In this document: positions 14,430-28,921 of the stretch, in pieces
Layout: each line of letters opens with the position of its first letter
How positions within the stretch are numbered: the stretch's first letter is position 1
IMG/VR virus record: IMGVR_UViG_3300008050_000203
Location: 1 to 29,213 of that record
Strand: one strand, 5' to 3'
Length of the DNA: 29,213 bases
From: a virus
The notes under the pieces: model-generated
What the model was told of the DNA's origin: nothing
Databases searched by the model: none
The model's input: the letters and a program-made list of their open reading frames with translations, nothing else
Made by a program: the position numbers and the translations under genes

Positions 14430-15904
14430 TAGTCACTTACCTTAAAAACAAAGCTGTCTTTAAGAATACGCCTGTAGCCATTCTCATCAAGCAAAAATTC
14501 AATCCTATATGCATTTCCAGGAATAAGCATTGACATATGCAATTCTAAGAAGTTGGTTGCACCATCATAGCTCAACTTTGTATACTCTTCACTTGAGCCT
14601 GTGTAAAATGGAACGATGATTGTGCCTGAATCGGCCTCCTTGATTCTCCAATAAGCTTTTTCAAGATAGTTATTCTTTATGCCAGCTGACCCAGTTGATT
14701 GTACAGAGGGTTTCCAGTTATCTTGTCGCGCAATAATGTTAATACGGGCATACTCAGCTGCACCATACCACTTTCTCATATTTGTTGCTTCAAGTGCATA
14801 CTCAACTGGATTAATGGTTGCAGTAAAATTCTCAATAGAGCCAGTAAATGCAGATCCTGTAAAAAACAATGTCGCAGATGGGTCTGGAGCAAGTAAGCCG
14901 TGACTACCAGAGAACCAAACTTCATGCAGAATGTTTCCTGTGGTTGCACTTCTAATAGCTGACGATGTCATTGTTGTTTGCCAATTATAAACACCTGGGC
15001 GCACATAAGAACCTGTGAAAAACGCCACGTGCTGTCCATTAAGTGCGTCCTTTAGCTGGACTTTTACATCTTTCAGCACAGAGCCTGTTGCTAGATTAGT
15101 TAATTGCCCTCTTACAATGTTATAACCATAAACTGTTGATGATTCATCAAACAAAAAATCGTCACGTTGATCACGAATATTAGTTTCAAAACGCGCCTCA
15201 ACATAAGGGCGTCGATCAAGGAAATGTGTAGTACGACTATGAAACTTCTTCATGTAAAGTGAAGTTGAATTTGCAGCCTCTTGTGACGCTGTAATCTTTA
15301 GAAGTAATCCGTTATTTGGAATATTTCCAGACAGCCAATTGTTCACAATTTCTGTCACATCAATTTCTAGATTTTCATTTCCAATATCAAAAAACTGCGA
15401 TCCAGATCCATAGTAGTCTGGATCGCCAGGGTTGCTAGTGTAGTAATCACCTCCATCCGCAACCCAATCAAGTGTTGTTGAGGCTGTTCCCCAATTAGCA
15501 ACACCCGGATCACCAAGGGTGTCGTTATCAAAACCTGCACCCTCAACCCAAATTTTACTTGAACCAGCTGATGAAGAAACTGGAAAAACCTTTAATGTGA
15601 ACTGCTCTGCTTGTTGGTTGCCATGCGGAGCGTCAGTCATCTTAAGAAAATATTTTACACCAATGCCTGTGGAAGGCAGTAGTTCGTCATCAATTAAATC
15701 CTGAAATGGTTGATGATTTAGATACACAAGCGCCCTCGCCCGCTCTTCACCTTGTGAACCTGTTCTGTAGAAGACATCAATTATCTCAGATCTGCCCAAG
15801 TTAGAGCCTGTTGCACGTGTAGATCTACCTTGCCTATACGGCTTTGGATCCATAAATGCATCAGTAATAGACGTGTCGCGATCAAAAAATTTTCTAAACA
15901 GCAT
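14429..15904 (-). CDS. DNRLRE-like domain structural protein (491 aa)
   Basis: The N-terminal half looks like a DNRLRE/CBM96-type beta-sandwich (about residues 25-240). It contains I-D-V-T-E-I-V-N-N-W-L-S-G (about 175-190), N-N-G-L-L-L-K-I, then an F-H-S-R-T segment and the closing R-R-P-Y-V-E-A-R-F-E. That is the usual order in this family, which includes carbohydrate-binding modules. The C-terminal half is beta-rich and unassigned (VYGYNIVRGQL onward). The gene is TAATG-coupled to gp6 upstream and to the 1038-aa LamG gene downstream. It probably forms part of the baseplate periphery. Glycan binding is possible but is not shown by identifiable binding residues. Confidence 0.75.
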   Translation of the reverse strand: MLFRKFFDRDTSITDAFMDPKPYRQGRSTRATGSNLGRSEIIDVFYRTGSQGEERARALVYLNHQPFQDLIDDELLPSTGIGVKYFLKMTDAPHGNQQAEQFTLKVFPVSSSAGSSKIWVEGAGFDNDTLGDPGVANWGTASTTLDWVADGGDYYTSNPGDPDYYGSGSQFFDIGNENLEIDVTEIVNNWLSGNIPNNGLLLKITASQEAANSTSLYMKKFHSRTTHFLDRRPYVEARFETNIRDQRDDFLFDESSTVYGYNIVRGQLTNLATGSVLKDVKVQLKDALNGQHVAFFTGSYVRPGVYNWQTTMTSSAIRSATTGNILHEVWFSGSHGLLAPDPSATLFFTGSAFTGSIENFTATINPVEYALEATNMRKWYGAAEYARINIIARQDNWKPSVQSTGSAGIKNNYLEKAYWRIKEADSGTIIVPFYTGSSEEYTKLSYDGATNFLELHMSMLIPGNAYRIEFLLDENGYRRILKDSFVFKVSD

Positions 15905-17712
15905 TATCGCACGACTCCTCTAACATCTGTTTCATCAAACTTAATCTCAAGTAATGAATTAGCAGGTACATGAATTATACCACCATGCGTAACACTTTGA
16001 ATTGACAATGCATCACGTGAATATTCACGACCCTCAATTGTACCTGCCAGATTGCGAAGATTAACAGATGCGACTGCAAGCGTGCCGGGCATTCCTGCAA
16101 GGATTCCTATAATATTTGATAGAATAACATTCTGCCCCATTTGCCATCTTGAAGTGTCAAAATAATCAAGCACGCGTTGAATTGCTGACGCCAGGAGCGC
16201 ATTTTTATTAACGCCGGATCGTGCTACAAGCTCAAAATCAACACCAACGTTAACGATTTTGCCATCAAGAATATCGATTCCTGACGAAAGCATCTTATAT
16301 TTGCTAATGTACTTTTTCAGATTTTCTTTCAATGCTGGTGTTGGTACTACCAGCGTTCCTGCTGCATCTTTTGAGATTGCCCACAAAGAAACTGAATTTC
16401 TATTGCCTTCATTTTGCGCTGCCCGAGCACGAAAAACAGAACCAAGTGAGGCAGGCATTGACATTGCTCTTACAACAAAATCTTCAGAAGTAACAACGCG
16501 ATCTTGTGCTGCTTGATGCGCAGGAATCATACGTGCAAGTTCATTAATTGTTAAGCCGTCATCGCCTCCAATGATTGGCTTTGCATTTTGGACAGAAACA
16601 GAATTTTTTACAGTTGTAATAATTGTTGCATCGTAAAAAGGATCAGGCATCTCAATATCAAGTGAAACTGGACTCTGTAATTGGCCAGCTCCAATATTTG
16701 AATTAAACCCTCCACCAACTCTATATTGCACCGTCAATGTTGTATTTGCTGGACCAACTCCAAAACTTGTTGTTTGAAGAAAGTTTTGTGGATCTATAGA
16801 AACGCTTGGAAATTGTGTCCTACCCGCTAGTGGTAATGCAAGCTCATTGACATCTGGAATAATTACTTGATCAAACCTTGAGCCATCAGCACCACCAAAT
16901 GTTAGCTTAGTTAGCTTAGTTAATGGATCATACTCCTTCATGAATCTACGGGGTGCGCGCACTAATTTAAGCACACTTGGCACTGTTGCAGAATCTGCCC
17001 CTACATTTTGTTCAATAACAAAAACCATATCCTGCGAAAGATTTTCAACTTCATAAAAGCGGTTGCCGGCAGAATCAAAAACATCAATTATATCAGTTAC
17101 ATTCAAGTCTTGCAGTGTTATTTGATGAAATTTCTTGAAAGAACCAATAATATGCTGCTTTTTAACAGTTTTTCCTGCTACACAAGGTACATTTTGCTTA
17201 AGAACGATCAAATCTGTGAATGATCCAACAGCAGCTGGTAAAATCTTTCTGTTAACTGAATTGGCAAAATCGCAGTTTTCAACTGTTTCTACGCTTGATC
17301 CTGCCCCAGAAAACCGAGATCCTGCCCTCAGATTCATTAAAAGGTTAGGAACGGGCACAATTTCACCATCTATGACTGTGGATGGTACAATAATGGCAAT
17401 ATCAATGAAGCCAGACGCAGCTGCACCTGGTCGAATAGAATAGCCTTGTCGGCGACCCATATTAATCACGTTTTTAGCTTCGCGAGCAGCAAGAGTGCGT
17501 TCACGTACCTGATGATCGATATAGAAATTTAACACATCGGTTGCTGTCGCCATTAATTCAATCAGCATCATACCTGACGAGGCTTCATTGAAGTCTTGGT
17601 ACGTCTCGGGGAAATTCTGCCGAATATACTCAATCAGGCGGGCGCGTGTTTGATCAAAATCACGATCTAAATATTTTACGCCTACAGGAAGATTGTCATC
17701 ATTTACAGTCAT
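15904..17712 (-). CDS. Baseplate wedge protein, gp6/Baseplate_J family
   Basis: This is a T4 gp6-like wedge protein that forms the ring of the contractile-tail baseplate. The N-terminus is typical: V-K-Y-L-D-R-D-F near residue 15, F-P-E-T-Y-Q-D-F-N at about 33-42, and M-L-I-E-L-M-A-T-A-T-D-V-L-N-F-Y-I-D. The R-E-A-K-N-V-I-N-M-G-R-R-Q-G-Y segment then matches the family's Leu-Ile-x-x-A-x-x-x-G-Y region. The C-terminus contains the V-N-V-G-V-D-F-E-L-V and S-N-I-I-G-I-L-A-G-M-P-G-T segments seen in Baseplate_J proteins. At 602 aa it is a little shorter than T4 gp6 (660 aa). It lies directly after gp25, overlapping as ATGA, a common order in T4-related phages. Confidence 0.93.
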   Translation of the reverse strand: MTVNDDNLPVGVKYLDRDFDQTRARLIEYIRQNFPETYQDFNEASSGMMLIELMATATDVLNFYIDHQVRERTLAAREAKNVINMGRRQGYSIRPGAAASGFIDIAIIVPSTVIDGEIVPVPNLLMNLRAGSRFSGAGSSVETVENCDFANSVNRKILPAAVGSFTDLIVLKQNVPCVAGKTVKKQHIIGSFKKFHQITLQDLNVTDIIDVFDSAGNRFYEVENLSQDMVFVIEQNVGADSATVPSVLKLVRAPRRFMKEYDPLTKLTKLTFGGADGSRFDQVIIPDVNELALPLAGRTQFPSVSIDPQNFLQTTSFGVGPANTTLTVQYRVGGGFNSNIGAGQLQSPVSLDIEMPDPFYDATIITTVKNSVSVQNAKPIIGGDDGLTINELARMIPAHQAAQDRVVTSEDFVVRAMSMPASLGSVFRARAAQNEGNRNSVSLWAISKDAAGTLVVPTPALKENLKKYISKYKMLSSGIDILDGKIVNVGVDFELVARSGVNKNALLASAIQRVLDYFDTSRWQMGQNVILSNIIGILAGMPGTLAVASVNLRNLAGTIEGREYSRDALSIQSVTHGGIIHVPANSLLEIKFDETDVRGVVR

Positions 17713-18110
17713 AGCTTCACTGTTACCTCATCGAAGATGTTATTGTTGAATGTATATGTAAAGCGCACAAAAACTTTCATCTCATTAGCGAGAAGATCAG
17801 GCTCTTCATCTTTTGTTGTGATTCTTAAGTCAACAATGGAAACGAATGACATATATTTCCCAACAGATGATTTGATGCGATCTGCAACATTCAACTTCAT
17901 ATCCTGCGTCATTTGCTCAAATAAGAGGCCGCGGATGCCGGCGCCGAAATCAGTGAACATCAATCGTTCACCTGGGTTTGTTAGAAGTAAGTTGATGATA
18001 TTATCACGAACTGCAGAGCGTGAATCACGATTCATCGCAAAATATGAACCATCACCTGTACGTTGGAATGGAAGCTTGAAATTTAACCCTGGAATGTTTC
18101 GCCTTGCCAT
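17709..18110 (-). CDS. Baseplate wedge protein gp25-like (GPW_gp25 family)
   Basis: This 133-aa protein matches the gp25/TssE-type family in length (T4 gp25 is 132 aa) and sequence. The body reads S-A-V-R-D-N-I-I-N-L-L-L-T-N-P-G-E-R-L-M-F-T-D-F-G-A-G-I ..., and then L-L-F-E-Q-M. This is the classic region with the conserved Asn-x-x-Gly-Glu-Arg and Asp-Phe-Gly elements. In T4, gp25 joins gp53 and gp6 in the inner baseplate and helps initiate sheath assembly. The ATG at 18110 lacks a clear Shine-Dalgarno and lies 8 bases after the upstream stop, so reinitiation is likely. Confidence 0.95.
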   Translation of the reverse strand: MARRNIPGLNFKLPFQRTGDGSYFAMNRDSRSAVRDNIINLLLTNPGERLMFTDFGAGIRGLLFEQMTQDMKLNVADRIKSSVGKYMSFVSIVDLRITTKDEEPDLLANEMKVFVRFTYTFNNNIFDEVTVKL

Positions 18111-20721: not shown

Positions 20722-21016
20722 CCTGCGGGTTTTCCTCGTCGTAGATATCTAAATCTTGTGCAAGACCATCTAGATCATCGTCATCATTTTCAGGCTGCAT
20801 TTTTTCAAGGATTCTAGCAATTGCCATTAATTGATCAACCGTCTTTGCACGAGCAGCGTACATCTTTGGAAGCTCTTTCATATATGCTGCAGCACTGCCA
20901 GGCTCAGAATCGATGCCTTGTTCAATGTAGCCAAGTACGACAGTTATTGATTCTCTATCTTCCTCAGCCTGCTTATAAGCCTGCTTAAGCAGTGCTTCAA
21001 CATCAAGTTCATTCAT
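20708..21016 (-). CDS. Small acidic helical protein (102 aa)
   Basis: The family is not recognised with confidence. The protein is helical, with a middle segment A-A-A-Y-M-K-E-L-P-K-M-Y-A-A-R-A-K-T-V-D, and it ends in a strongly acidic tail (residues 77-102: N-D-D-D-D-L-D-G and more). The helical spacing (Gly-x-x-Ser...Ala-x-x-Tyr...Asp-x-L) is weakly like small terminase subunits (gp16) of T4-related phages, but with no decisive motif I would not name it so. The start overlaps the sigma-factor stop as ATGA, and the stop lies inside the start region of the transglycosylase gene. The acidic tail could mediate binding to a basic partner, which is inference. Confidence 0.7.
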   Translation of the reverse strand: MNELDVEALLKQAYKQAEEDRESITVVLGYIEQGIDSEPGSAAAYMKELPKMYAARAKTVDQLMAIARILEKMQPENDDDDLDGLAQDLDIYDEENPQDEAL

Positions 21017-21717
21017 GGCGCTCTATAACCCTCTTCAAACCTTTTCAATGAATAAGTATAGCGTACCTTGAGTTTGCTGATTGCGTTCGTTATCTTTTTA
21101 GTCTCTAGTCCCGTTATCTCTCTAAGATATACATATACAGCTCTCTTACTGAGTATTTCAAGGCCATCAGCCTCTTTGAACAACTCAATTACAGCAGAGA
21201 TAACAATCTTATCATTCTCCTTTGCAGCTTCAGTAAGCCATCTTGTTTGCGCTTCAAATACAATAAATCTAACAAGCTCTGCCCGCTCAAACTCATCTTC
21301 ACTTGTTGCAATCTGGTTCGTACCTTCATTTGCCCTTGTCTTAATGACATCGTCATAACAGAGATTGCGTGATGAATCGCGTTGCTGGCGCCTATAGGCT
21401 GCAATGAAAAAGTTCTTGGTAATCTGATTGAAGTATGAAAATGCCTTGGTGCCGCGGGTTGGATCAAACCTTACAAGTGCCTTGTAGATGTGAACGAGAC
21501 ACTCTTGCTCTGCTTGCTCAATATCATGAATGGTTCTTCGAAACTTATACACATTGATGACATTTTCAATTAGCTTTGAAACAGCTGGATGAATTTCTTT
21601 TGTGTAAATTCTTTCACGCTCTGATGGATTTTCGCTTGTATTAAAGCGAACAATTGCAGCATCAACTTCTGGTCCAAAATATAATTTCTTTGTTGAATTC
21701 TTTTTACGCCTGCCCAT
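21013..21717 (-). CDS. Late transcription sigma factor, gp55-like (234 aa)
   Basis: This is a phage sigma-70-family factor that would redirect host RNA polymerase to late promoters. The region 2 core runs about residues 62-112: I-E-Q-A-E-Q-E-C-L-V-H-I-Y-K-A-L, F-D-P-T-R-G-T-K-A-F-S-Y-F-N-Q-I-T and N-F-F-I-A-A-Y-R-R. That order is typical of gp55-type sigma factors, including the FGPE start segment (14-17) and K-L-I-E-N-V-I-N. The C-terminus (about 185-225) has an HTH-like region 4 relic, R-E-I-T-G-L-E-T-K-K-I-T-N-A-I. The frame extends to 21768, but that would overlap the upstream gene by 65 bases. The ATG at 21717, 6 bases after GGGAG, fits better. The coupled gene order puts it in the same transcript as the baseplate genes. 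Confidence 0.85.
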   Translation of the reverse strand: MGRRKKNSTKKLYFGPEVDAAIVRFNTSENPSERERIYTKEIHPAVSKLIENVINVYKFRRTIHDIEQAEQECLVHIYKALVRFDPTRGTKAFSYFNQITKNFFIAAYRRQQRDSSRNLCYDDVIKTRANEGTNQIATSEDEFERAELVRFIVFEAQTRWLTEAAKENDKIVISAVIELFKEADGLEILSKRAVYVYLREITGLETKKITNAISKLKVRYTYSLKRFEEGYRAP

Positions 21718-22030
21718 CATCTTCTCCCATATTTGATGTAATATGCCCGCCATCAATGACAATTTCAAGAGACTCGCATGAACTAATTATTGTATGCTCA
21801 AGAAATCGCCATGTTGCAAACATAGCACGGAGCTTTGGCGTGTCAAAGAAAAGCTGTTGCTCATTTACTTCTTCAACAAATCTATTAAACTTCAAAATAT
21901 CAGCTGAAATATCGCCGACGACGCCTGAATAATTGTCAAGCTTGATGAGTGCTCTGTATAGCAGCACAGAGACAATTCCCAAACACGCAAGTGCTGCAAG
22001 TAAGGCGCCTCCTAAAATCCATGGCATCAT
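21704..22030 (-). CDS. Membrane-anchored small protein (108 aa)
   Basis: The family is not recognised. A strongly hydrophobic N-terminal helix (about residues 3-27: W-I-L-G-G-A-L-L-A-A-L-A-C-L-G-I-V-S-V-L-L-Y) is followed by a charged, probably helical domain of 80 residues. That arrangement suggests a single-pass inner-membrane anchor rather than a cleaved signal, as no cleavage motif is visible. Two ATGs are adjacent (22030 and 22027), and the first forms an ATGA overlap with the upstream stop. The tail overlaps the sigma gene's start by 14 bases. Possible roles such as lysis control or superinfection exclusion are only guesses. Confidence 0.75.
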   Translation of the reverse strand: MMPWILGGALLAALACLGIVSVLLYRALIKLDNYSGVVGDISADILKFNRFVEEVNEQQLFFDTPKLRAMFATWRFLEHTIISSCESLEIVIDGGHITSNMGEDDGQA

Positions 22031-22236
22031 GTTAAATCGTCAAAGGAATCATCATCTAGGTCGACATCACTTGATTCGTTTGCATCATCAATTAATTGCG
22101 GATACAGTTCACCATCAACAGCATTATAACGAACACTTCGCAAGTATTCAGATACGTCGGTTCCATTTAGCAGTGCGCTCTGCAGCGCTAAAACAAATTG
22201 TGCTGTCGCCTCTGACGATAGCTTTAAGTCAGTCAT
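22027..22236 (-). CDS. Small acidic protein (69 aa)
   Basis: The family is unknown. The sequence begins with a helical segment (about residues 7-36, A-T-A-Q-F-V-L-A-L-Q-S-A-L-L). It ends with an acidic stretch, D-V-D-L-D-D-D-S-F-D-D-L-T, whose alternating Asp/hydrophobic residues are faintly like the clamp-binding tails of T4 late-transcription proteins. The gene is ATGA-coupled at both ends, to the HAD phosphatase gene upstream and to the membrane-protein gene downstream. Being two genes ahead of a gp55-like sigma factor makes a transcription-accessory role thinkable, but the sequence alone does not show this. Confidence 0.65.
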   Translation of the reverse strand: MTDLKLSSEATAQFVLALQSALLNGTDVSEYLRSVRYNAVDGELYPQLIDDANESSDVDLDDDSFDDLT

Positions 22237-22583
22237 TCTTTAAGTCCTGGTAGAGAATCTAAATCTTCTGGGTTATCAAAACAAAAACCCTTATCATCAA
22301 TGTATATGTCAGCTGACACTTTCCCAAAAAAGATTGAATCATAGGGCACATCCCATTCATCCATTTGGGAAAGTGTCAGCTCTTTAATTGCTTCTGGAAT
22401 ATTCTTTACATTATCTTTTGTTCGGCCCATTCCTCGAGCCGTTTGTAGTTTTATTGTGTTCCCTTTATTATAAAGAGCCCGCATTCGCTCAATAACAGCC
22501 TCATTTGGCACAGAATTTTCATAATTGCTGTCCTTTGTAGCACAAACAACTCCATCAATGTCAAAACAATAGGTTTTAATCAT
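22233..22583 (-). CDS. HAD-superfamily phosphatase (116 aa)
   Basis: This small HAD hydrolase has all four motifs: D8-I-D10-G-V (nucleophile and acid/base Asp), T48-A-R-G, K88 (F-F-G-K) and D96-D97 (Y-I-D-D-K-G). Length and motifs resemble capsule-biosynthesis phosphatases of the EcbF/BcbF type, a minimal HAD without a large cap. It lies after the HldE-like kinase and the cupin, so a sugar phosphate is the likely substrate. By context it may stand in for GmhB, which removes a phosphate between the kinase and nucleotidyltransferase steps of heptose activation. GmhB itself is longer (about 190 aa), so this equivalence is inference. The gene is ATGA-coupled on both sides. Confidence 0.82.
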   Translation of the reverse strand: MIKTYCFDIDGVVCATKDSNYENSVPNEAVIERMRALYNKGNTIKLQTARGMGRTKDNVKNIPEAIKELTLSQMDEWDVPYDSIFFGKVSADIYIDDKGFCFDNPEDLDSLPGLKE

Positions 22584-23032
22584 AACGTAGTCCCCCGCAT
22601 TATGCGGTATGAGTCCTCATCAAAGTGTTCTGTGGAGAACTCGAATAGCTCCAGACCGCTGCGAGAGATGATCTGGTGCACAGTTCTGGGTGGAATTGGG
22701 ATGATTTCGCCCGCAAATAGCGGTATAACCTGCAAATCTAAAATTTCTTTTGCCCTCGACCACGTATCAGTGAACTCTGTTCCTTTGAGGCTATCGATGC
22801 GCAAACCCTTCGGGAAATGAACATCAAGTTGGCCCGGGGCAAATTGTCGAGAAATAAGAAGAAGGCCCTCACCGCCCTGGATGTAAAATGTCTCGTTCTT
22901 CTTCTCATGATAATGAAGAGAACACTTGGTGCCAGGACTAAATACAAGCTTTTTACCGCAGTAAAGAGACGAATTTGCCGCCCAAAGCTCATAGCCCCAC
23001 CCCTTTGCTACACGCACTGGTTCAAACGTCAT
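22580..23032 (-). CDS. Cupin sugar isomerase-like protein (150 aa)
   Basis: A single cupin barrel fills the protein. Cupin motif 1 is S-L-H40-Y-H42-E-K-K-N-E47-T-F-Y, motif 2 includes I-P-P-R-T-V-H119, and the C-terminus reads S-T-E-H-F-D-E-D-S-Y-R-I. These are metal-site His and Glu residues like those of type II mannose-6-phosphate isomerase-like and D-lyxose isomerase-like cupins. Such proteins often convert or bind sugar phosphates in nucleotide-sugar pathways. The frame is open to 23104, but that overlaps the kinase gene by 83 bases. The ATG at 23032, 6 bases after AAGGA and overlapping by only 11 bases, is preferred. The exact substrate is unknown. Confidence 0.85.
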   Translation of the reverse strand: MTFEPVRVAKGWGYELWAANSSLYCGKKLVFSPGTKCSLHYHEKKNETFYIQGGEGLLLISRQFAPGQLDVHFPKGLRIDSLKGTEFTDTWSRAKEILDLQVIPLFAGEIIPIPPRTVHQIISRSGLELFEFSTEHFDEDSYRIMRGTTL

Positions 23033-23873
23033 TTGATGTCCTTGGTAAGGCAACTGCCTTTGTTGCAGCAGCCTCAGCAATTCGAGCGGCCCATTTAAAA
23101 TCATCCTGAAATGTCAAAGCATACGCGAACACCGCTGTCACTACATCACCTGCTCCGACAACACTTCTTACTGGTCCAGCTGTTGTTTTTAGGCGCTCAG
23201 TTTCATTACCCAACTCAAATACTGCTAGGCCATCAGCTCCCATTGAAACAATTGCAACAGGGATGTCTTGTTTATTATCTAGAGCAGTCCACTCTGCAAA
23301 ATTTACTGTAATATACACATCAAAATCACGTGATAGAAAACCATCATAATCTTGAAAATTAGCTTTCTTGGTATCAATTACAATTTTTGCTGTTTCTGGA
23401 AGGCGGGTGGCAATCTCATCAATGAGCTCACGTGTAACAATTCCCTTTGCATAATCAGACACGATTACTACATCTGCTATATCAAGAATATTACATTTCT
23501 GCGCATTCATAGATTTCACTGACTGCAGAACAAGATTACTATCTTGCGGTGAGAATGACTTACCGGTGTCAACACGAAGAAGTGTTACGTCACCATTCAT
23601 ATAACGTGTCTTCAACAGCATCTTGTCGATTTCGCCGTCTATAAACATAACTGTTGGAGCTAGATATCGCAAGTGACTATTTACAGGGCCAATGAAACTT
23701 GTTGAGCAATGAAGCCTGCTAATTATTTTTGCAACGTTTGCAGCTCCGCCAGCCTGCTCTACAGTGTCATTGACATCAAGCAGTAGGCTCGGGGCTTCAG
23801 GGTTCACCCTGCTTACGTCACCGTAAATGTAGCGATCAACCATTGGATCACCGATAACAACAACATTAGGCAT
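23022..23873 (-). CDS. hldE: HldE N-terminal-type sugar kinase (pfkB family, 283 aa)
   Basis: This is a stand-alone counterpart of the kinase half of HldE/RfaE, which phosphorylates D-glycero-D-manno-heptose-7-phosphate at C1 in ADP-heptose synthesis. Supporting motifs are G-D-P-M-V-D-R-Y, R-V-N-P-E-A-P (residues 22-28), G-G-A-A-N-V-A (42-48), the LLRVD segment (98-102), D-Y-A-K-G (140-144) and V-G-A-G-D (239-243). The last is the pfkB ATP/anion-hole signature with its catalytic Asp. HldE kinase domains are usually about 320 residues, so this copy is compact. The frame is open to 24008, but starting at 23873 (MPNVVVIGD) overlaps the previous gene by only 8 bases. Related sugars are possible substrates. 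Confidence 0.85.
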   Translation of the reverse strand: MPNVVVIGDPMVDRYIYGDVSRVNPEAPSLLLDVNDTVEQAGGAANVAKIISRLHCSTSFIGPVNSHLRYLAPTVMFIDGEIDKMLLKTRYMNGDVTLLRVDTGKSFSPQDSNLVLQSVKSMNAQKCNILDIADVVIVSDYAKGIVTRELIDEIATRLPETAKIVIDTKKANFQDYDGFLSRDFDVYITVNFAEWTALDNKQDIPVAIVSMGADGLAVFELGNETERLKTTAGPVRSVVGAGDVVTAVFAYALTFQDDFKWAARIAEAAATKAVALPRTSNDV

Positions 23874-24378
23874 TAATACGCCCGCGAATTGCTGTTGAAC
23901 TAAATCCCTCGACTGTTGGAAAAATTGCGATTGACGCATATTCATGTCCAACAACATCTTCTGGTTTATAATCACCACCTTTAACGATGATATCAGGTTC
24001 AACAGCAAGAATAAGATTTAATGGTGTGTCTTCACTGAAGGGAATCGTTACAAGATATTTTACTGGGTTGGTCGCAATGTTTTCAATCATGAAACATCTT
24101 TCATCAATTGGCACAAAGGGCCGATCGCTACCTTTGTAGCGGCGCACACTGCTATCACTGTTTACACCAACAACTAATGCGCCATATGGGCCTGCAAGCG
24201 CCGCGGCATATTGAATAATCTTTACATGGCCAGGATGTAGAATATCAAAGCACCCATTTGTAAATACAACTCGTGATGGTAGAGGAATTCTGCGAAGTTG
24301 TACAATCTTTTGCTCCAGTGAATATCCTGTTCTTGGCTTAATAGCTGTAGCATAACTTTTCTTTACTCTACGATCCAT
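23866..24378 (-). CDS. hldE: HldE C-terminal-type nucleotidyltransferase (170 aa)
   Basis: This is a stand-alone counterpart of the nucleotidyltransferase half of HldE/RfaE, which joins AMP to heptose-1-phosphate. The motifs are almost textbook: V-F-T-N-G-C-F-D-I-L-H48-P-G-H51 (HxGH), G-V-N-S-D-S-S-V-R-R-Y-K-G (71-83), E-D-T-P (116-119), I-V-K-G-G-D-Y (131-137) and S-S-T-A-I-R-G-R-I (160-168). In E. coli the two halves are fused with the kinase first. Here they are separate, with this half upstream. The ATG at 24378 follows an AAGGGGGG Shine-Dalgarno, and the gene overlaps the methyltransferase gene by 16 bases. The nucleotide used (ATP or CTP) cannot be read from sequence. Confidence 0.9.
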   Translation of the reverse strand: MDRRVKKSYATAIKPRTGYSLEQKIVQLRRIPLPSRVVFTNGCFDILHPGHVKIIQYAAALAGPYGALVVGVNSDSSVRRYKGSDRPFVPIDERCFMIENIATNPVKYLVTIPFSEDTPLNLILAVEPDIIVKGGDYKPEDVVGHEYASIAIFPTVEGFSSTAIRGRINA

Positions 24379-24977
24379 GCGATTTGGCCCCCCTTTTCAT
24401 GGGCAGAGGCAAACAGTGGTTCGATACCAATCGCGTTGAAGTACTCCTGCACCAGCTCAGGCTTGCTTGCTCCCTCGCGGTGGTAGTCGTCAACCATGAC
24501 GATGACAGCACGAGGGAAGCGGCCAGTTACGACGGGCCAGATGGCTGTCAGCTCCTTGAGGTGGTGAATCGCAGCGGCTTGGCCCTCCAGGGGGTTGTAA
24601 TCGTAGGAATCGAGGTATACGAGGTCAGGAAGTGTGCCCTGGGCCGCGATTCTGTGCAGTTCTGCCACGGAATCCGCAGTAATTGCGGTTACGTATTTGG
24701 AATCGCACACCTTTCGGGCAAGCTCAGTAGCTGCCGGATCGATGTCAATTGTGATCACCTGGCCGCCCGTTTGGGCCACGAACCACTCCCAAACACGTGT
24801 AGACTGCCCGTCCCACGTCCAATTATCATACTGGCGCACGGTTCCTGTCTCGATGATGATATGACCAGTATCTCGCTCTTCTAACATAGCAGCAATGGCC
24901 TTACGAAACGTAGCAAATCTACGGCCTAAGCGCTTATCCATGAAAAACTTGTCATACTCTGCAAGAATGTTGGTCAT
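24363..24977 (-). CDS. Class I SAM-methyltransferase-like protein (204 aa)
   Basis: A Rossmann-type methyltransferase fold is likely. Motif I is I-I-E-T-G-T-V-R (residues 41-48), the acidic strand ends V-I-T-I-D-I-D (74-80), a Y-L-D-S-Y-D-Y (121-127) follows, and V-D-D-Y-H (162-166) resembles motifs of the Methyltransf_24 group. No acceptor specificity can be inferred. The start is well supported: GGAGG lies 4 bases ahead of ATG, after the longest non-coding gap in the region. The gene is at the start of the visible GC shift towards higher GC and shares that composition with the genes upstream. The pathway role (O-methylation of a sugar or glycan) is inference from the sugar-gene neighbours. 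Confidence 0.72.
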   Translation of the reverse strand: MTNILAEYDKFFMDKRLGRRFATFRKAIAAMLEERDTGHIIIETGTVRQYDNWTWDGQSTRVWEWFVAQTGGQVITIDIDPAATELARKVCDSKYVTAITADSVAELHRIAAQGTLPDLVYLDSYDYNPLEGQAAAIHHLKELTAIWPVVTGRFPRAVIVMVDDYHREGASKPELVQEYFNAIGIEPLFASAHEKGGQIAWIVE

Positions 24978-25024
24978 CCTGCCTCCAATATGTACATTGT
25001 ATCACGCAGTTAAGGGCGTGGAAC
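24978..25024 (-). promoter_or_regulatory. Short intergenic leader with possible extended -10
   Basis: This 47-base gap is the longest non-coding stretch between genes. On the minus strand, TGATACAAT (TACAAT at 25001-24996) resembles an extended -10 element, and a GGAGG ribosome site follows at 24986-24982. A 5-bp inverted repeat (CACGC and GCGTG, 25003-25020) overlaps the TG of this element. No good -35 hexamer is present 16-18 bases upstream, so a working promoter is uncertain. Confidence 0.28.
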
Positions 25025-25432
25025 CTATTTTGCGGCTGCAGCCAGAGCGCTGGACGACTGGACCTTGCCACCGCGACCGACATTCCAGAGGAGACCCACA
25101 TTCATGTCGTTACAGAGGTTGACCTCAGGCGTGTTGTCGCTGACACGATCTCCACCATTGGCGAAGTAGTCAGGCTTGAACCGCTTGATTGCGTCACAGG
25201 CAGTGTCATCAGAGTCGTCAAAGGCAACCACCTGTGAGACGCCGCGGATGGCCATCAGAATCTCCTTGCGCTCTTCAAACGGCATGAAAACGAAGCCCTT
25301 CTTGCGGAGCAGCCATGCGTCTGAATTGAGGGCGACAATCACCGGGCCCATCCGGTTCGCCTGCAGGATCATCCTCACATGCCCGATGTGAATTGGGTCG
25401 AAGCCTCCGGATACCATGATTCGCTCATTCAT
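25025..25432 (-). CDS. HxGH nucleotidyltransferase, second copy (135 aa)
   Basis: This is a second member of the cytidylyltransferase-like superfamily. It has S-G-G-F-D-P-I-H15-I-G-H18 (HxGH motif), V-A-L-N-S-D (33-38), F-M-P-F-E-E-R-K-E-I-L (49-59), A-N-G-G-D-R (91-96) and the closing V-Q-S-S-S (124-128). That order is like RfaE2 and TagD (glycerol-3-phosphate cytidylyltransferase), which activate sugar or polyol phosphates. It is shorter than the HldE-type enzyme, lacks the KGGDY form and has GC-rich codons, so it is not a recent duplicate. Its sugar may differ from that of the 170-aa enzyme. It lies in the GC-rich block, 11 bases after the previous stop. Confidence 0.85.
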   Translation of the reverse strand: MNERIMVSGGFDPIHIGHVRMILQANRMGPVIVALNSDAWLLRKKGFVFMPFEERKEILMAIRGVSQVVAFDDSDDTACDAIKRFKPDYFANGGDRVSDNTPEVNLCNDMNVGLLWNVGRGGKVQSSSALAAAAK

Positions 25433-25443
25433 CTCAACACTCT

Positions 25444-25695
25444 CTATTCTGGCACAAAGCAGAAGCGCATGACGGGGACCAATCGATCACCCTTCTCGTA
25501 CATGTCAAAGTTTGACGTGCTCTTGCAGAAGAGCTTCCCCCGGAGGCCGGCAAAAGCCCTCTCATCTCCGGGCCAGGCGTACTCTGACGTGAGATGGCGT
25601 GATACCTCACCATCAAGAAACTGCGGTGTCTCTACCTCAACCACCTCGATGCCAGGGTAATCCGCGAAGAACGCTCTAACTTCGTCAACCGTCAT
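25444..25695 (-). CDS. Small unknown protein (83 aa)
   Basis: The family is not recognised. It begins M-T-V-D-E-V-R-A-F-F-A-D-Y-P-G and has a mixed aromatic and charged sequence with two Cys residues (C57 and C79) and no membrane segment. It is ATGA-coupled to the 91-aa gene upstream, supporting a real gene rather than a chance frame, and its GC-rich third positions match the neighbouring glycan genes. Its function is unknown. Confidence 0.62.
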   Translation of the reverse strand: MTVDEVRAFFADYPGIEVVEVETPQFLDGEVSRHLTSEYAWPGDERAFAGLRGKLFCKSTSNFDMYEKGDRLVPVMRFCFVPE

Positions 25696-25967
25696 GGGCG
25701 GTTGGCGTCCATCTCCGCCAGCAGCTCATCAGCGTCGTAGCCACACATTGGGGCGGCATCACGAATCTGCTTCTCGGTGATCTTTCCATTGACGAATGGC
25801 AACACGACTAGGGTCTCGCCATCCTCGGCGAGTAGAAATACTCCCCCGCCTCGCTCCTTGAAGAGCGCCTGCATGTTGTTCCAGCCTGGGATAGGTTCTT
25901 CAGTTGCCAAGGGAAAAAGCCCTTCTGGTGTGCACTGGATGCTGTCCAGTGAACTCGTAGATGCCAT
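25692..25967 (-). CDS. Small unknown protein with uncertain start (up to 91 aa)
   Basis: The family is not recognised. The certain part is the acidic C-terminal half (G-V-F-L-L-A-E-D-G-E, and D-A-D-E-L-L-A-E-M-D-A). Starting at 25967 would overlap the glycosyltransferase by 68 bases, an outlier for this window. A later ATG at 25874 gives a 60-residue protein with no overlap, but the ribosome site ahead of it is weak (CCAGGCTGG, about 9-13 bases away). I list the longer limit and treat the first 31 residues as doubtful. The end is ATGA-coupled to the 83-aa gene. Confidence 0.5.
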   Translation of the reverse strand: MASTSSLDSIQCTPEGLFPLATEEPIPGWNNMQALFKERGGGVFLLAEDGETLVVLPFVNGKITEKQIRDAAPMCGYDADELLAEMDANRP

Positions 25968-26700
25968 AATCGCCCGTAGTGGTGGCTTTTCCGTCCTCTA
26001 CAGCCCAATCGTAGGTGAATTCCCGGTCTCCGAACCGTGTATTCCACCAATCGATCTTGGACTGGATACGCTCTGGAGGCCGCATAAATGAGTAGTGGAA
26101 GTAGGAAATCGGCAGCTTGAGGTGCTGCGCGTTGCCCGAGAACCATCCAGCGTACTCCCAATCCATGTAGTTGTCGTTTACGAAGCGGCAACCAGGCGTC
26201 ATCCTGAAGAAGCGAGGAAATTCATGCCACGTGTACGTGTCGAAGTCGTTCACGAACGTCCTGGACTTGACGTGCACGCAGTCGACAGGAGTCACGTCCA
26301 GATTCCTTGTCAGGACCTTAGCAGCAATGGCCAGCTGGTCATCCTCCCACACCTCATCGCCATCAACGATGAAGAGATAGTCCTCAACGCCATCACCGAA
26401 GTTGCAGAGGTTGTCACGAATGTAGTTCAGGCCCGCGTTTCGCTGGTGTGTGTCAGACTCCTGGTTGGTCTGCAGCATGGCCACCTTGTCGTGTGCCTCA
26501 GCAGCATCGACAATGCTCATGATGAGACCAACGGTGCCATCAGTGGAGCGAGCGGAGCGTCCAATGCGGATGAACTCCTGGTACGCACCTTCCACTATCG
26601 TGATGGAGGCGACGTGGGGCGACTCGATCATTGCTGGAAGGGAGGCAGGAATGAACTCCGCCTCGTTGTACACTGTCATGAGAACGTGGATTCTAGCCAT
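25900..26700 (-). CDS. GT2-family glycosyltransferase (266 aa)
   Basis: This is a GT-A-fold glycosyltransferase, inverting family 2 by motif. The N-terminus H-V-L-M-T-V-Y-N-E-A-E-F-I (5-17) is the usual nucleotide-binding start, S-T-D-G-T (52-56) follows, and the metal-binding DxD is D113-G-D115 (I-V-D-G-D-E). The C-terminal half has a Trp/Tyr-rich acceptor region (FHYSFMRPPERIQSKIDWW). There is no transmembrane segment, so it probably acts in the cytosol on soluble acceptors or a peripheral lipid. It overlaps the 79-aa gene start by 8 bases and shows the higher GC content of its block. Acceptor and donor cannot be read from sequence. Confidence 0.88.
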   Translation of the reverse strand: MARIHVLMTVYNEAEFIPASLPAMIESPHVASITIVEGAYQEFIRIGRSARSTDGTVGLIMSIVDAAEAHDKVAMLQTNQESDTHQRNAGLNYIRDNLCNFGDGVEDYLFIVDGDEVWEDDQLAIAAKVLTRNLDVTPVDCVHVKSRTFVNDFDTYTWHEFPRFFRMTPGCRFVNDNYMDWEYAGWFSGNAQHLKLPISYFHYSFMRPPERIQSKIDWWNTRFGDREFTYDWAVEDGKATTTGDYGIYEFTGQHPVHTRRAFSLGN

Positions 26701-26932
26701 TTTCTGCGGCCCTTCGCATTGCGTCCCACTCCTGCCCAGCAGTAAACATCATTGTCGCCAGCAGAGTGTTTGACAAGCCAAACTCATCAAACTCTTCAGC
26801 GACACTCATGACAAATTTGGCCTGCATGTCTGGGGCGTCCATGACCATTGTCTGGCCGCTCTTGAATTCTGCGTAAACTGCCCTCATGTTGCGGCACAAT
26901 ATTTCGTAAGCGATTACTTCTGCATTATCCAT
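26693..26932 (-). CDS. Small unknown helical protein (79 aa)
   Basis: The family is not recognised. The sequence is Ala/Met-rich and probably helical (A-Y-E-I-L-C-R-N-M-R-A-V-Y-A-E-F), with seven internal Met residues. The start overlaps the previous stop by 8 bases (ATGGATAA) and its end overlaps the GT2 start by 8 bases. That tight packing favours a real gene. No signal peptide or motif was seen. Confidence 0.62.
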   Translation of the reverse strand: MDNAEVIAYEILCRNMRAVYAEFKSGQTMVMDAPDMQAKFVMSVAEEFDEFGLSNTLLATMMFTAGQEWDAMRRAAENG

Positions 26933-27746
26933 CTTCTACCCAGAGAATGTCATTGATCTGGCCAGTCTTGGGGAGCTCAATTGTCTTCAAGACCTCACCA
27001 TTCATTGTAACCAAATGTAGGTGAGATGGAACCTCACCATGCCTCTCGCCTCGTGAAGCGCGGAAACTTTCACCAACCCAGAGGTTCCCATTGGGGAGCT
27101 GGGCAATGCCACGAATGAAGCCAGACAGCTTGACGAGTGGCTCATGGCCGCCGACGAGCCAGACCTCGCTGTCGTGAGACGAGCAGTAGGCGATGGTGCC
27201 ATCGTGGAGGACTTCGATGTCGTGGGTGTGCGTTCCACCCTGGCTGACTGGATGCATCTCGCTGATCTGGATGACGTCACCATGCGAGGCTTCGTCAATC
27301 CAGCTCCAGGGGATGAGCCCAATCTGACTTGTCTGCCCGCGGTTGTTGAGGCCGACCATGAGGCCATGCTCAGTCGCCGCCAGGGCGTTGATGTGGTTGA
27401 TGTCAGCTCGGCGCTGGCCAATGTTGATCCGCCACTCTCTTTCCACTTCCGCCACTACGATGGAGTTGTCCTTCGTGCTCGTGAGGAACATCTGGTTGGC
27501 TTGCCTGAAGGCGATTTGGCGGCAGTCCAGCACATTGGGAATCCGGATGAACACCGCAGGGTCGTCGCTGGAGTAGATCCGCACGCCTGTGGCACCCTCA
27601 TCACGACCTGTCGCAGCTACAACACCGGAGTCGTCTGTGATCAGACCAAACCAGTTGCTGCAATTGCTGTCATGGAAATAGAGCTCCGCCCGCGTTCCTT
27701 CATCATTTACCTGGAGGGCGCCGGCGGTTGTTGCTACATAGAGCAA
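26925..27746 (-). CDS. Beta-propeller-like protein (273 aa)
   Basis: A repeated four-strand pattern fits a beta-propeller: A-A-T-G-R-D-E-G-A, A-F-R-Q-A-N-Q-M-F-L-T-S, H-G-L-M-V-G-L-N-N-R-G, D-G-T-I-A-Y-C-S-S-H-D-S-E-V-W and P-N-G-N-L-W-V-G-E-S-F. The G-T-H-T-H-D-I-E-V (about 170-178) could be a metal or substrate site, similar in style to TIGR03032/DUF4915 or SMP-30-like proteins. This family link is a guess from pattern. The start is TTG: no ATG fits, and GGAG lies 6 bases ahead, overlapping the upstream stop (GGAGTAGAGCTTG). It lies at the right border of the GC-rich block, among glycan genes. Confidence 0.72.
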   Translation of the reverse strand: MLYVATTAGALQVNDEGTRAELYFHDSNCSNWFGLITDDSGVVAATGRDEGATGVRIYSSDDPAVFIRIPNVLDCRQIAFRQANQMFLTSTKDNSIVVAEVEREWRINIGQRRADINHINALAATEHGLMVGLNNRGQTSQIGLIPWSWIDEASHGDVIQISEMHPVSQGGTHTHDIEVLHDGTIAYCSSHDSEVWLVGGHEPLVKLSGFIRGIAQLPNGNLWVGESFRASRGERHGEVPSHLHLVTMNGEVLKTIELPKTGQINDILWVEDG

Positions 27747-27752
27747 GCTCTA
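27739..27752. repeat. 14-bp inverted repeat at the GC-block border
   Basis: TAGAGC and GCTCTA arms flank a two-base spacer. The repeat is centred on the TTG start codon of the propeller gene and includes the stop of the small basic protein gene. It could hinder or regulate translation start, but its shortness allows chance. Confidence 0.3.
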
Positions 27753-28004
27753 CTCCGCTTCTTTGTCTGCTGTCTTCGGCTTGCGCTTCCTGCTACTCGG
27801 CTTGCGCTTTGAAGGTAGGCGCTTCTCAGCAAGTGAAGGTAAGGCTGGTGCTGGTGCTAAATCTACAGGCTTAGCTTCAACAGGCTCAGGCTTAGCTTCA
27901 ACAGGCTCAGGCTTGGCTTCAACAGGCTCAGGCGTTGGAAGAACCCAACCTGCTTGCCTCTCACGCTGTGAACGCTTAATTCGTGCTCGTGAACGTTTAC
28001 TCAT
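27750..28004 (-). CDS. Small basic protein with PEPVEAK repeats (84 aa)
   Basis: This protein has an unusual layout. The Arg/Lys-rich N-terminus (M-S-K-R-S-R-A-R-I-K-R-S-Q-R-E-R, residues 1-16) is followed by three near-perfect copies of P-E-P-V-E-A-K (about 25-45). A Pro/Ala linker then leads to a second basic block (R-K-P-S-S-R-K-R-K-P-K, about 66-77). Basic ends joined by a Pro/Glu linker recall histone-H1-like or nucleoid-type proteins, but no family is recognised. DNA or polyanion binding is inference. The start is supported by AGGAGA 7 bases ahead of the ATG, overlapping the upstream stop TAG. The repeat tract at DNA level is listed separately. Confidence 0.75.
   Translation of the reverse strand: MSKRSRARIKRSQRERQAGWVLPTPEPVEAKPEPVEAKPEPVEAKPVDLAPAPALPSLAEKRLPSKRKPSSRKRKPKTADKEAE
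27874..27936 (-). repeat. Three tandem 21-bp coding repeats
   Basis: The unit gcttcaacaggctcaggctt occurs three times in a row (27874, 27895, 27916), with only two or three mismatches at the unit ends, and a partial copy precedes it at 27863. Each unit encodes P-E-P-V-E-A-K on the minus strand. Because the unit length is a multiple of three, copy number can change without a frameshift. Confidence 0.9.
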
Positions 28005-28015
28005 CTTTGTGTCTC

Positions 28016-28921
28016 CTAGTTTTCAAGTGCTGCAACAATTCTGTTGACAACACGTTCTGGTGTATAAGTAGCCGCAATCTTGCTTGCAGGCCCAAGATCC
28101 CACTCAAAATGACTCTGTATAAGGGCTTCAACTACGCTAACAAAATCTTCGATATTATCTGGCTCAAACATTGGAATAGTATCACCCCACACTTCTTGCA
28201 TCACGGATGTAGCAGCTACAACAGGAACTGCTCCACACAAAACAGCTTCAATCGGGATAAGGCCTAGACCCTCGCGCACTGAAGGGGCGAGCACGCACTT
28301 GGACGCACAGAGTATGTTCGTCAGTGACATGCTATTCAAAAAGCCTAGGCCGCGGGCGCAGCCGTACTTTCCTGGCTTAATTGCTGGGCCTGCGACCATA
28401 TATGTAAAGCTCTTATCATAGATAGTATTCAGCGTTCTTACAGTTTCCTCAGCTAGTCGAAACCTCTTTGCTTCATCTTCAAGACGACCATAGGAAAAAA
28501 AGTCAGCTGTGCCACGTGGAATCTTTCCAGCGATTGCAGAAGCAACCGTGAGGTTCACGTTGACTGGGTCACCCACTACGTGATATGCTCCTTCATAGCC
28601 CAACTCACGAATCTGCTTACCCACAAATTCAGTATTAACAAGAACGCAATCAGCAAGATCGAGGCGCCACATATGCTCCTTAGCTCTTGCGTCTTCAGCC
28701 TCTGCAGCCCAATTCATATCGAGCACTTTAGCTACAACCTTTGTCTTTCCTTGCAAAATTGCAGTATTGTACTTCACATCAAGCAATGCTTGGGGATCAT
28801 GGCAGTATACCCAATCGGCTTCACTACTATCTGTAGCAAGCATTCCGCGTTTATGCAGCTCAGTAGCCAATGTTGGTACCTGCCCCCAAGGGCCTGCAAA
28901 CCCTGTTAACTTAATCTTCAT
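28016..28921 (-). CDS. GT4-type glycosyltransferase (301 aa)
   Basis: This is a GT-B-fold glycosyltransferase. The C-terminal half has the retaining-GT4 signature P-S-V-R-E217-G-L-G-L-I-P-I-E225-A, an E-x7-E pair that holds the donor nucleotide-sugar, followed by C-G-A-V-P-V-V-A. A F-S-Y-G-R-L segment (142-147) starts the second Rossmann domain. The N-terminal half is short (M-K-I-K-L-T-G-F-A-G-P-W-G-Q), and 301 residues is compact for GT4. The start forms an ATGA overlap with the sulfotransferase-like gene, with GAGG 7 bases ahead. The donor and acceptor are unknown. AT-rich composition separates it from the GC-rich block downstream. Confidence 0.88.
   Translation of the reverse strand: MKIKLTGFAGPWGQVPTLATELHKRGMLATDSSEADWVYCHDPQALLDVKYNTAILQGKTKVVAKVLDMNWAAEAEDARAKEHMWRLDLADCVLVNTEFVGKQIRELGYEGAYHVVGDPVNVNLTVASAIAGKIPRGTADFFSYGRLEDEAKRFRLAEETVRTLNTIYDKSFTYMVAGPAIKPGKYGCARGLGFLNSMSLTNILCASKCVLAPSVREGLGLIPIEAVLCGAVPVVAATSVMQEVWGDTIPMFEPDNIEDFVSVVEALIQSHFEWDLGPASKIAATYTPERVVNRIVAALEN

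Follow-up and report, generated by a model that had tools for sequence, protein, structure and literature searches.

Four overlapping genes in a viral contig appear, on balance, to encode a phage pathway to ADP-heptose, in which a cupin takes the place of GmhA and a mini-HAD phosphatase that of GmhB. The stretch of DNA analysed, termed the window, is a complete IMG/VR record of 29,213 bases, itself a fragment; its main genes lie on the minus strand. At positions 15904-18110 there are T4-like baseplate genes and at 21013-21768 a sigma-factor-like gene. In order of transcription, all on the minus strand, the operon runs from an RfaE2/HldE-C-like nucleotidyltransferase (24378-23866) through an RfaE1/HldE-N-like PfkB kinase (23873-23022) and the cupin (23032-22580) to the mini-HAD phosphatase, of EcbF/BcbF type (22583-22233). 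Successive genes share 8, 11 and 4 bases. For kinase and cupin the automatic open reading frames begin too far upstream, and the ATG codons at 23873 and 23032 were taken as starts instead. The active-site motifs of the operon proteins are intact. The original prediction, of a cluster carrying the two halves of HldE as separate genes together with a cupin and an HAD phosphatase, agrees with the family matches and stands in position.

The nucleotidyltransferase (P0003) has TIGR02199 as its top NCBIfam family (E-value 1.4e-36, 125.5 bits, the equivalog cut-off of 181.5 not being reached) and is 40% identical to the C-terminal domain of Escherichia coli HldE over 139 residues. It carries the HxGH nucleotide-binding motif as HPGH, and a KGGDYKPE segment that matches HldE. 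The top family for the kinase is TIGR02198 (8.7e-37, 126.9 bits, under the equivalog cut-off of 345). Overall identity to E. coli HldE is 27% and the R-x-x-PEAP, SDYxKG, NxxE and GAGD motifs are common to both proteins (alignment A4). The HMM search proposed with the original prediction thus places both enzymes closest to heptose families, each below its equivalog cut-off. Since heptose families score best and the relatives of these genes are accompanied by HldD-type epimerases, and sometimes by GmhB, heptose activation is the best reading, and the suggestion that the virus makes an activated heptose-like sugar gains support.

In the pathway that we infer from the observed gene content, motifs, gene neighbourhood and absence of GmhA, with its substrate, nucleotide and sugar end use, the cupin is the predicted aldose-ketose sugar-phosphate isomerase. 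It would carry out the first step, normally that of GmhA, the isomerisation of sedoheptulose 7-phosphate to manno-heptose 7-phosphate. The kinase, a predicted heptose-7-phosphate 1-kinase, would add the 1-phosphate, the mini-HAD would remove the 7-phosphate as GmhB does, and the nucleotidyltransferase would generate the NDP-heptose, the nucleotide being ADP if family membership is a guide. In relatives an HldD-type epimerase would act next; the window virus may lack such a gene or carry it beyond the ends of the fragment. Glycosyltransferases could then place the sugar on a host surface polysaccharide or a virion component. The scheme shares with the bacterial ADP-heptose pathway (GmhA-HldE-GmhB-HldD) the HldE-related kinase and nucleotidyltransferase and the kinase-phosphatase-nucleotidyltransferase logic, but differs in having a cupin for the SIS-fold GmhA, a mini-HAD for GmhB, a split HldE and no HldD in the window. 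The first reading of the DNA had seen neither GmhA nor HldD, and our search of the 29,213-base contig, a fragment, likewise found no such gene. That reading also held the splitting to differ from the usual fused hldE. The split is real but not unusual, being common in phages such as the Prochlorococcus phage P-SSM2.

Does the arrangement recur? Scans of viral contigs with single sequences of the kinase, the HAD and a neighbouring gene found no relatives; anchoring on the nucleotidyltransferase and the cupin instead yielded 160 loci. Kinase and nucleotidyltransferase, split or fused, are present in 113 entries, the window being counted twice (as itself and as L001). About 100 further phage loci have the operon genes together, which places the arrangement far above chance. 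Among loci anchored on the nucleotidyltransferase and flanked on each side by 2.5 kb or more, 44 of 46 have the cupin and 44 of 46 an HldD-type epimerase as judged by a broad model built in this analysis, whilst GmhA (TIGR00441, SIS fold) occurs in none of the 46. A search of 50 whole phage records gave a single, weak match to GmhA. A stricter test for HldD, using the E. coli sequence at E < 1e-20, was positive in 67 of the 113 loci. With TIGR02197, the HldD family, one locus (L078) scores 309.8 bits, above the equivalog cut-off of 274.6; another (L003) and P-SSM2 score 238 and 210 bits, respectively. With all the other steps of the pathway present in phage loci, the isomerase is most naturally sought in the cupin.

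The association is looser when viewed from the cupin, since only 39 of 80 cupin-anchored phage loci have a kinase or nucleotidyltransferase gene inside the flanks. Three records lacking both there were read further; one carries the genes elsewhere and two do not in the parts read. In L143 and related loci (L137-L161) the cupin gene follows a thymidylate-synthase-like gene, away from heptose genes. A search of phages with E. coli GmhA identified ten GmhA-bearing loci, none with heptose kinase or nucleotidyltransferase genes in its flanks, and phages therefore offer no clean comparison of GmhA with the cupin. One cassette contig (L247, G019:9500-25500) has in addition a separate nucleotidyltransferase-epimerase-SIS isomerase locus. 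Contigs assigned to archaeal, planctomycete or Bifidobacterium genome bins (L183, L184, L186, L188, L200 and L204) also have a phage-type cassette and look like mis-binned phage DNA.

The mini-HAD, of 116 residues, matches TIGR01689 (EcbF-BcbF; 1.7e-13, 50.6 bits against a cut-off of 162) and phrog_1238, and shows no match to the GmhB family TIGR00213. The HAD motifs are intact and the closest solved structures are 9iqw, the nearest, and 1xpj. In the 113 phage loci with kinase and nucleotidyltransferase a mini-HAD is present 46 times, GmhB 19 times and the two together never, an exclusion that is not significant after dereplication (17 versus 2 clusters, p = 0.49). The corresponding values in the 46 flanked loci are 17 and 11, and 13 of the 50 whole phage records have GmhB. 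Mini-HAD homologues of RB69-like, Enterobacter and Acinetobacter phages (L165-L167) are located in modules whose other genes include ones resembling thymidylate synthase or thymidylate kinase; two of these modules also contain an annotated arabinose-5-phosphate isomerase. Homologues of this type are often annotated as 'phosphoheptose isomerase'.

The cupin falls just short of the Pfam Cupin_2 cut-off. An HxHxxKxE...H pattern is invariant over the 27 phage cupins aligned, and in the window protein the invariant His40, His42, Glu47 and His119 correspond to a three-histidine, one-glutamate metal site in the cupin barrel. Profile searches identified D-lyxose isomerase (2y0o and 7nzo), L-ribose isomerase and phosphomannose isomerase (7zvm), plus general cupins. 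The predicted structure is a confident cupin model (mean pLDDT 84.8), poor in an insertion at residues 70-83. D-lyxose isomerase and the archaeal phosphomannose isomerases 7zvm and 7zvy are among the structures that it resembles, with a Z score of approximately 15 for phosphomannose isomerase. Many cupins score similarly, however, so the fold alone does not assign a function. The cupin isomerases share fold and metal-site pattern with the modelled window cupin, which thus resembles sugar isomerases, but sequence identity is low and it is the window family that is placed in heptose operons. The conversions of fructose 6-phosphate to mannose 6-phosphate and of sedoheptulose 7-phosphate to manno-heptose 7-phosphate involve the identical stereochemical change. 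The cupin tree displays distinct phage groups, including heptose-type loci, with one group strongly supported; the window cupin, with its insertion, is a divergent long branch.

Bacterial genomes allow a comparison of cupin with GmhA. A genome scan with an alignment of more closely related cupins, chosen because the initial one was too diverse, found the cupin in bacteria; thresholds were at least 150 bits for the cupin and at least 100 bits for GmhA. In the class of genome G064 the cupin is present in 22 of 118 genomes, all 22 of which have HldE. Among the HldE-bearing genomes of that class GmhA occurs in one of the 22 with the cupin as against 55 of the 70 without, counts that ignore shared descent and may include incomplete genomes. 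The class of G057 has HldE in 121 of 121 genomes and GmhA in 111; all three cupin-bearing genomes fall among the ten that lack GmhA, for which the chance probability is 4e-4, subject to the same caution. Weak SIS-domain matches were noted in five cupin genomes. The Binatota-like cupins form a single clade in the tree, so a Fisher p value overstates independence. In these Binatota-like genomes the cupin gene adjoins that for GDP-mannose 4,6-dehydratase, which in L187 and L210 directly follows HldE (order HldE, dehydratase, cupin). An identification of this epimerase-like neighbour as HldD was dropped, NCBIfam assigning it as GDP-mannose 4,6-dehydratase. No heptose gene lies next to the cupin in the Planctomycetota loci examined.

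GmhA is thus missing from the flanked phage loci and depleted in bacteria that have the cupin, and mini-HAD and GmhB were not found together. These comparative data fit the earlier idea that the cupin and the mini-HAD may stand in for GmhA and GmhB. We regard as evenly poised the broader proposal that the cupin is an unrecognised sedoheptulose-7-phosphate isomerase, a non-orthologous replacement of GmhA in many phages and in GmhA-less Binatota-like and Planctomycetota bacteria, which with the mini-HAD would give a compact phage ADP-heptose pathway assembled from non-textbook parts.

The dehydratase gene beside the Binatota-like cupin makes a phosphomannose isomerase role the main rival. The cupin might be such an enzyme, another sugar-phosphate isomerase or an NDP-sugar epimerase serving a different sugar, with kinase, HAD and nucleotidyltransferase making heptose from an isomerase product supplied by the host. 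The matches to 7zvm, 7zvy and D-lyxose isomerase would suit this, as would the phage loci with a cupin but no kinase or nucleotidyltransferase. The dehydratase is rare in phages, however, occurring in only five of the 113 loci, whereas the cupin is near-constant in the flanked set. It would also be odd for phages to bring all steps except the isomerase, and depletion of GmhA in cupin-bearing bacteria counts against such a role. We consider this explanation rather unlikely. Less likely still is an NDP-sugar other than a heptose, such as a derivative of a pentose or hexose, as the product of the operon, its kinase and nucleotidyltransferase having drifted to a new substrate; such a sugar might serve to modify DNA, as happens in RB69-type phages. 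The scores below equivalog cut-offs and the lack of HldD in the window are compatible with that, and the mini-HAD family also occurs in DNA-modification-type modules of RB69-like and Acinetobacter phages near an annotated arabinose-5-phosphate isomerase (PMC6024577). Like the window operon, the arabinosyl-hmC module of RB69 type places a mini-HAD from this family beside genes for a sugar-phosphate isomerase and an NDP-sugar enzyme. It differs in that the annotated arabinose-5-phosphate isomerase stands in for the cupin, the nucleotidyltransferase is of another kind and some modules have a thymidylate-synthase-like partner; unlike in the window operon, PfkB kinase and cupin were not seen there. 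Against a non-heptose product are the HldD- and GmhB-type genes of cassette relatives and the agreement of the kinase R-x-x-PEAP and nucleotidyltransferase KGGDYKPE motifs with HldE. No thymidylate-synthase-like partner was noticed in the window, and we rate DNA modification as the main role lower. That these are ordinary acquired LPS genes forming no coherent pathway, perhaps 'stuffer DNA', was left open by a 2010 comparison of cyanophages (PMC3037559), but is very improbable given the overlapping frames, the intact active-site residues and recurrence over deeply different phages with varied gene orders.

The cassette itself is not new, its members having been recognised in 2010 as LPS genes that occur together in cyanophages. 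T4-GC 304, 305, 307 and 308 were noted to be jointly present in P-SSM2, S-SM2 and S-SSM7, with a functional link between them suggested as possible (PMC3037559). The P-SSM2 LPS cluster (PSSM2_309-313; T4-GC 304-308) has, as in the window, adjacent nucleotidyltransferase, kinase, mini-HAD and cupin genes, but there the HAD precedes the cupin, the two cupins are 38.6% identical and an HldD-like epimerase is added. Of PSSM2_309-312, the first two are annotated as nucleotidyltransferase and carbohydrate kinase; the HAD, third in line, is mislabelled 'phosphoheptose isomerase' and the cupin, fourth, 'nucleotidyltransferase'. Our literature search found no paper describing a cupin phosphoheptose isomerase or the cassette cupin as an isomerase. 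What is new is the comparative case, which suggests from sequence data that the cupin stands in the place of GmhA. If this is true, it would fill a gap in a phage sugar pathway that is widespread, allow erroneous annotations of HAD and cupin genes to be corrected and lend weight to the view that marine phages produce heptose themselves, for remodelling either the host surface or their own particles. It would also explain how some HldE-bearing bacteria live without GmhA, which has been investigated as a drug target.

Several genes near the operon, all on the minus strand, merit comment. A methyltransferase-like gene (24363-24977) overlaps the cluster upstream; it matches phrog_24975 (6.5e-22), a family of unknown function, gave no Pfam match and has a homologue close to the cassette in L042 and L044. 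A second RfaE2/CTP-transferase-like nucleotidyltransferase (25025-25432) scores 60 bits with TIGR02199 and 50 bits with PF01467, weaker than the first. Both this gene and the methyltransferase-like one had escaped the first reading. Candidate users of the activated sugar are a GT-B glycosyltransferase at 28016-28921 (PF13692, 35.7 bits, above the cut-off of 27) and a GT2-like glycosyltransferase at 25900-26700 (PF00535, 18.8 bits, below the cut-off of 23.3). The segment from 24400 to 28000 is a GC-rich island, with a GC content of approximately 0.55 compared to about 0.40-0.48 on both sides, and contains the second nucleotidyltransferase, GT2-like, methyltransferase-like and beta-propeller-like genes.
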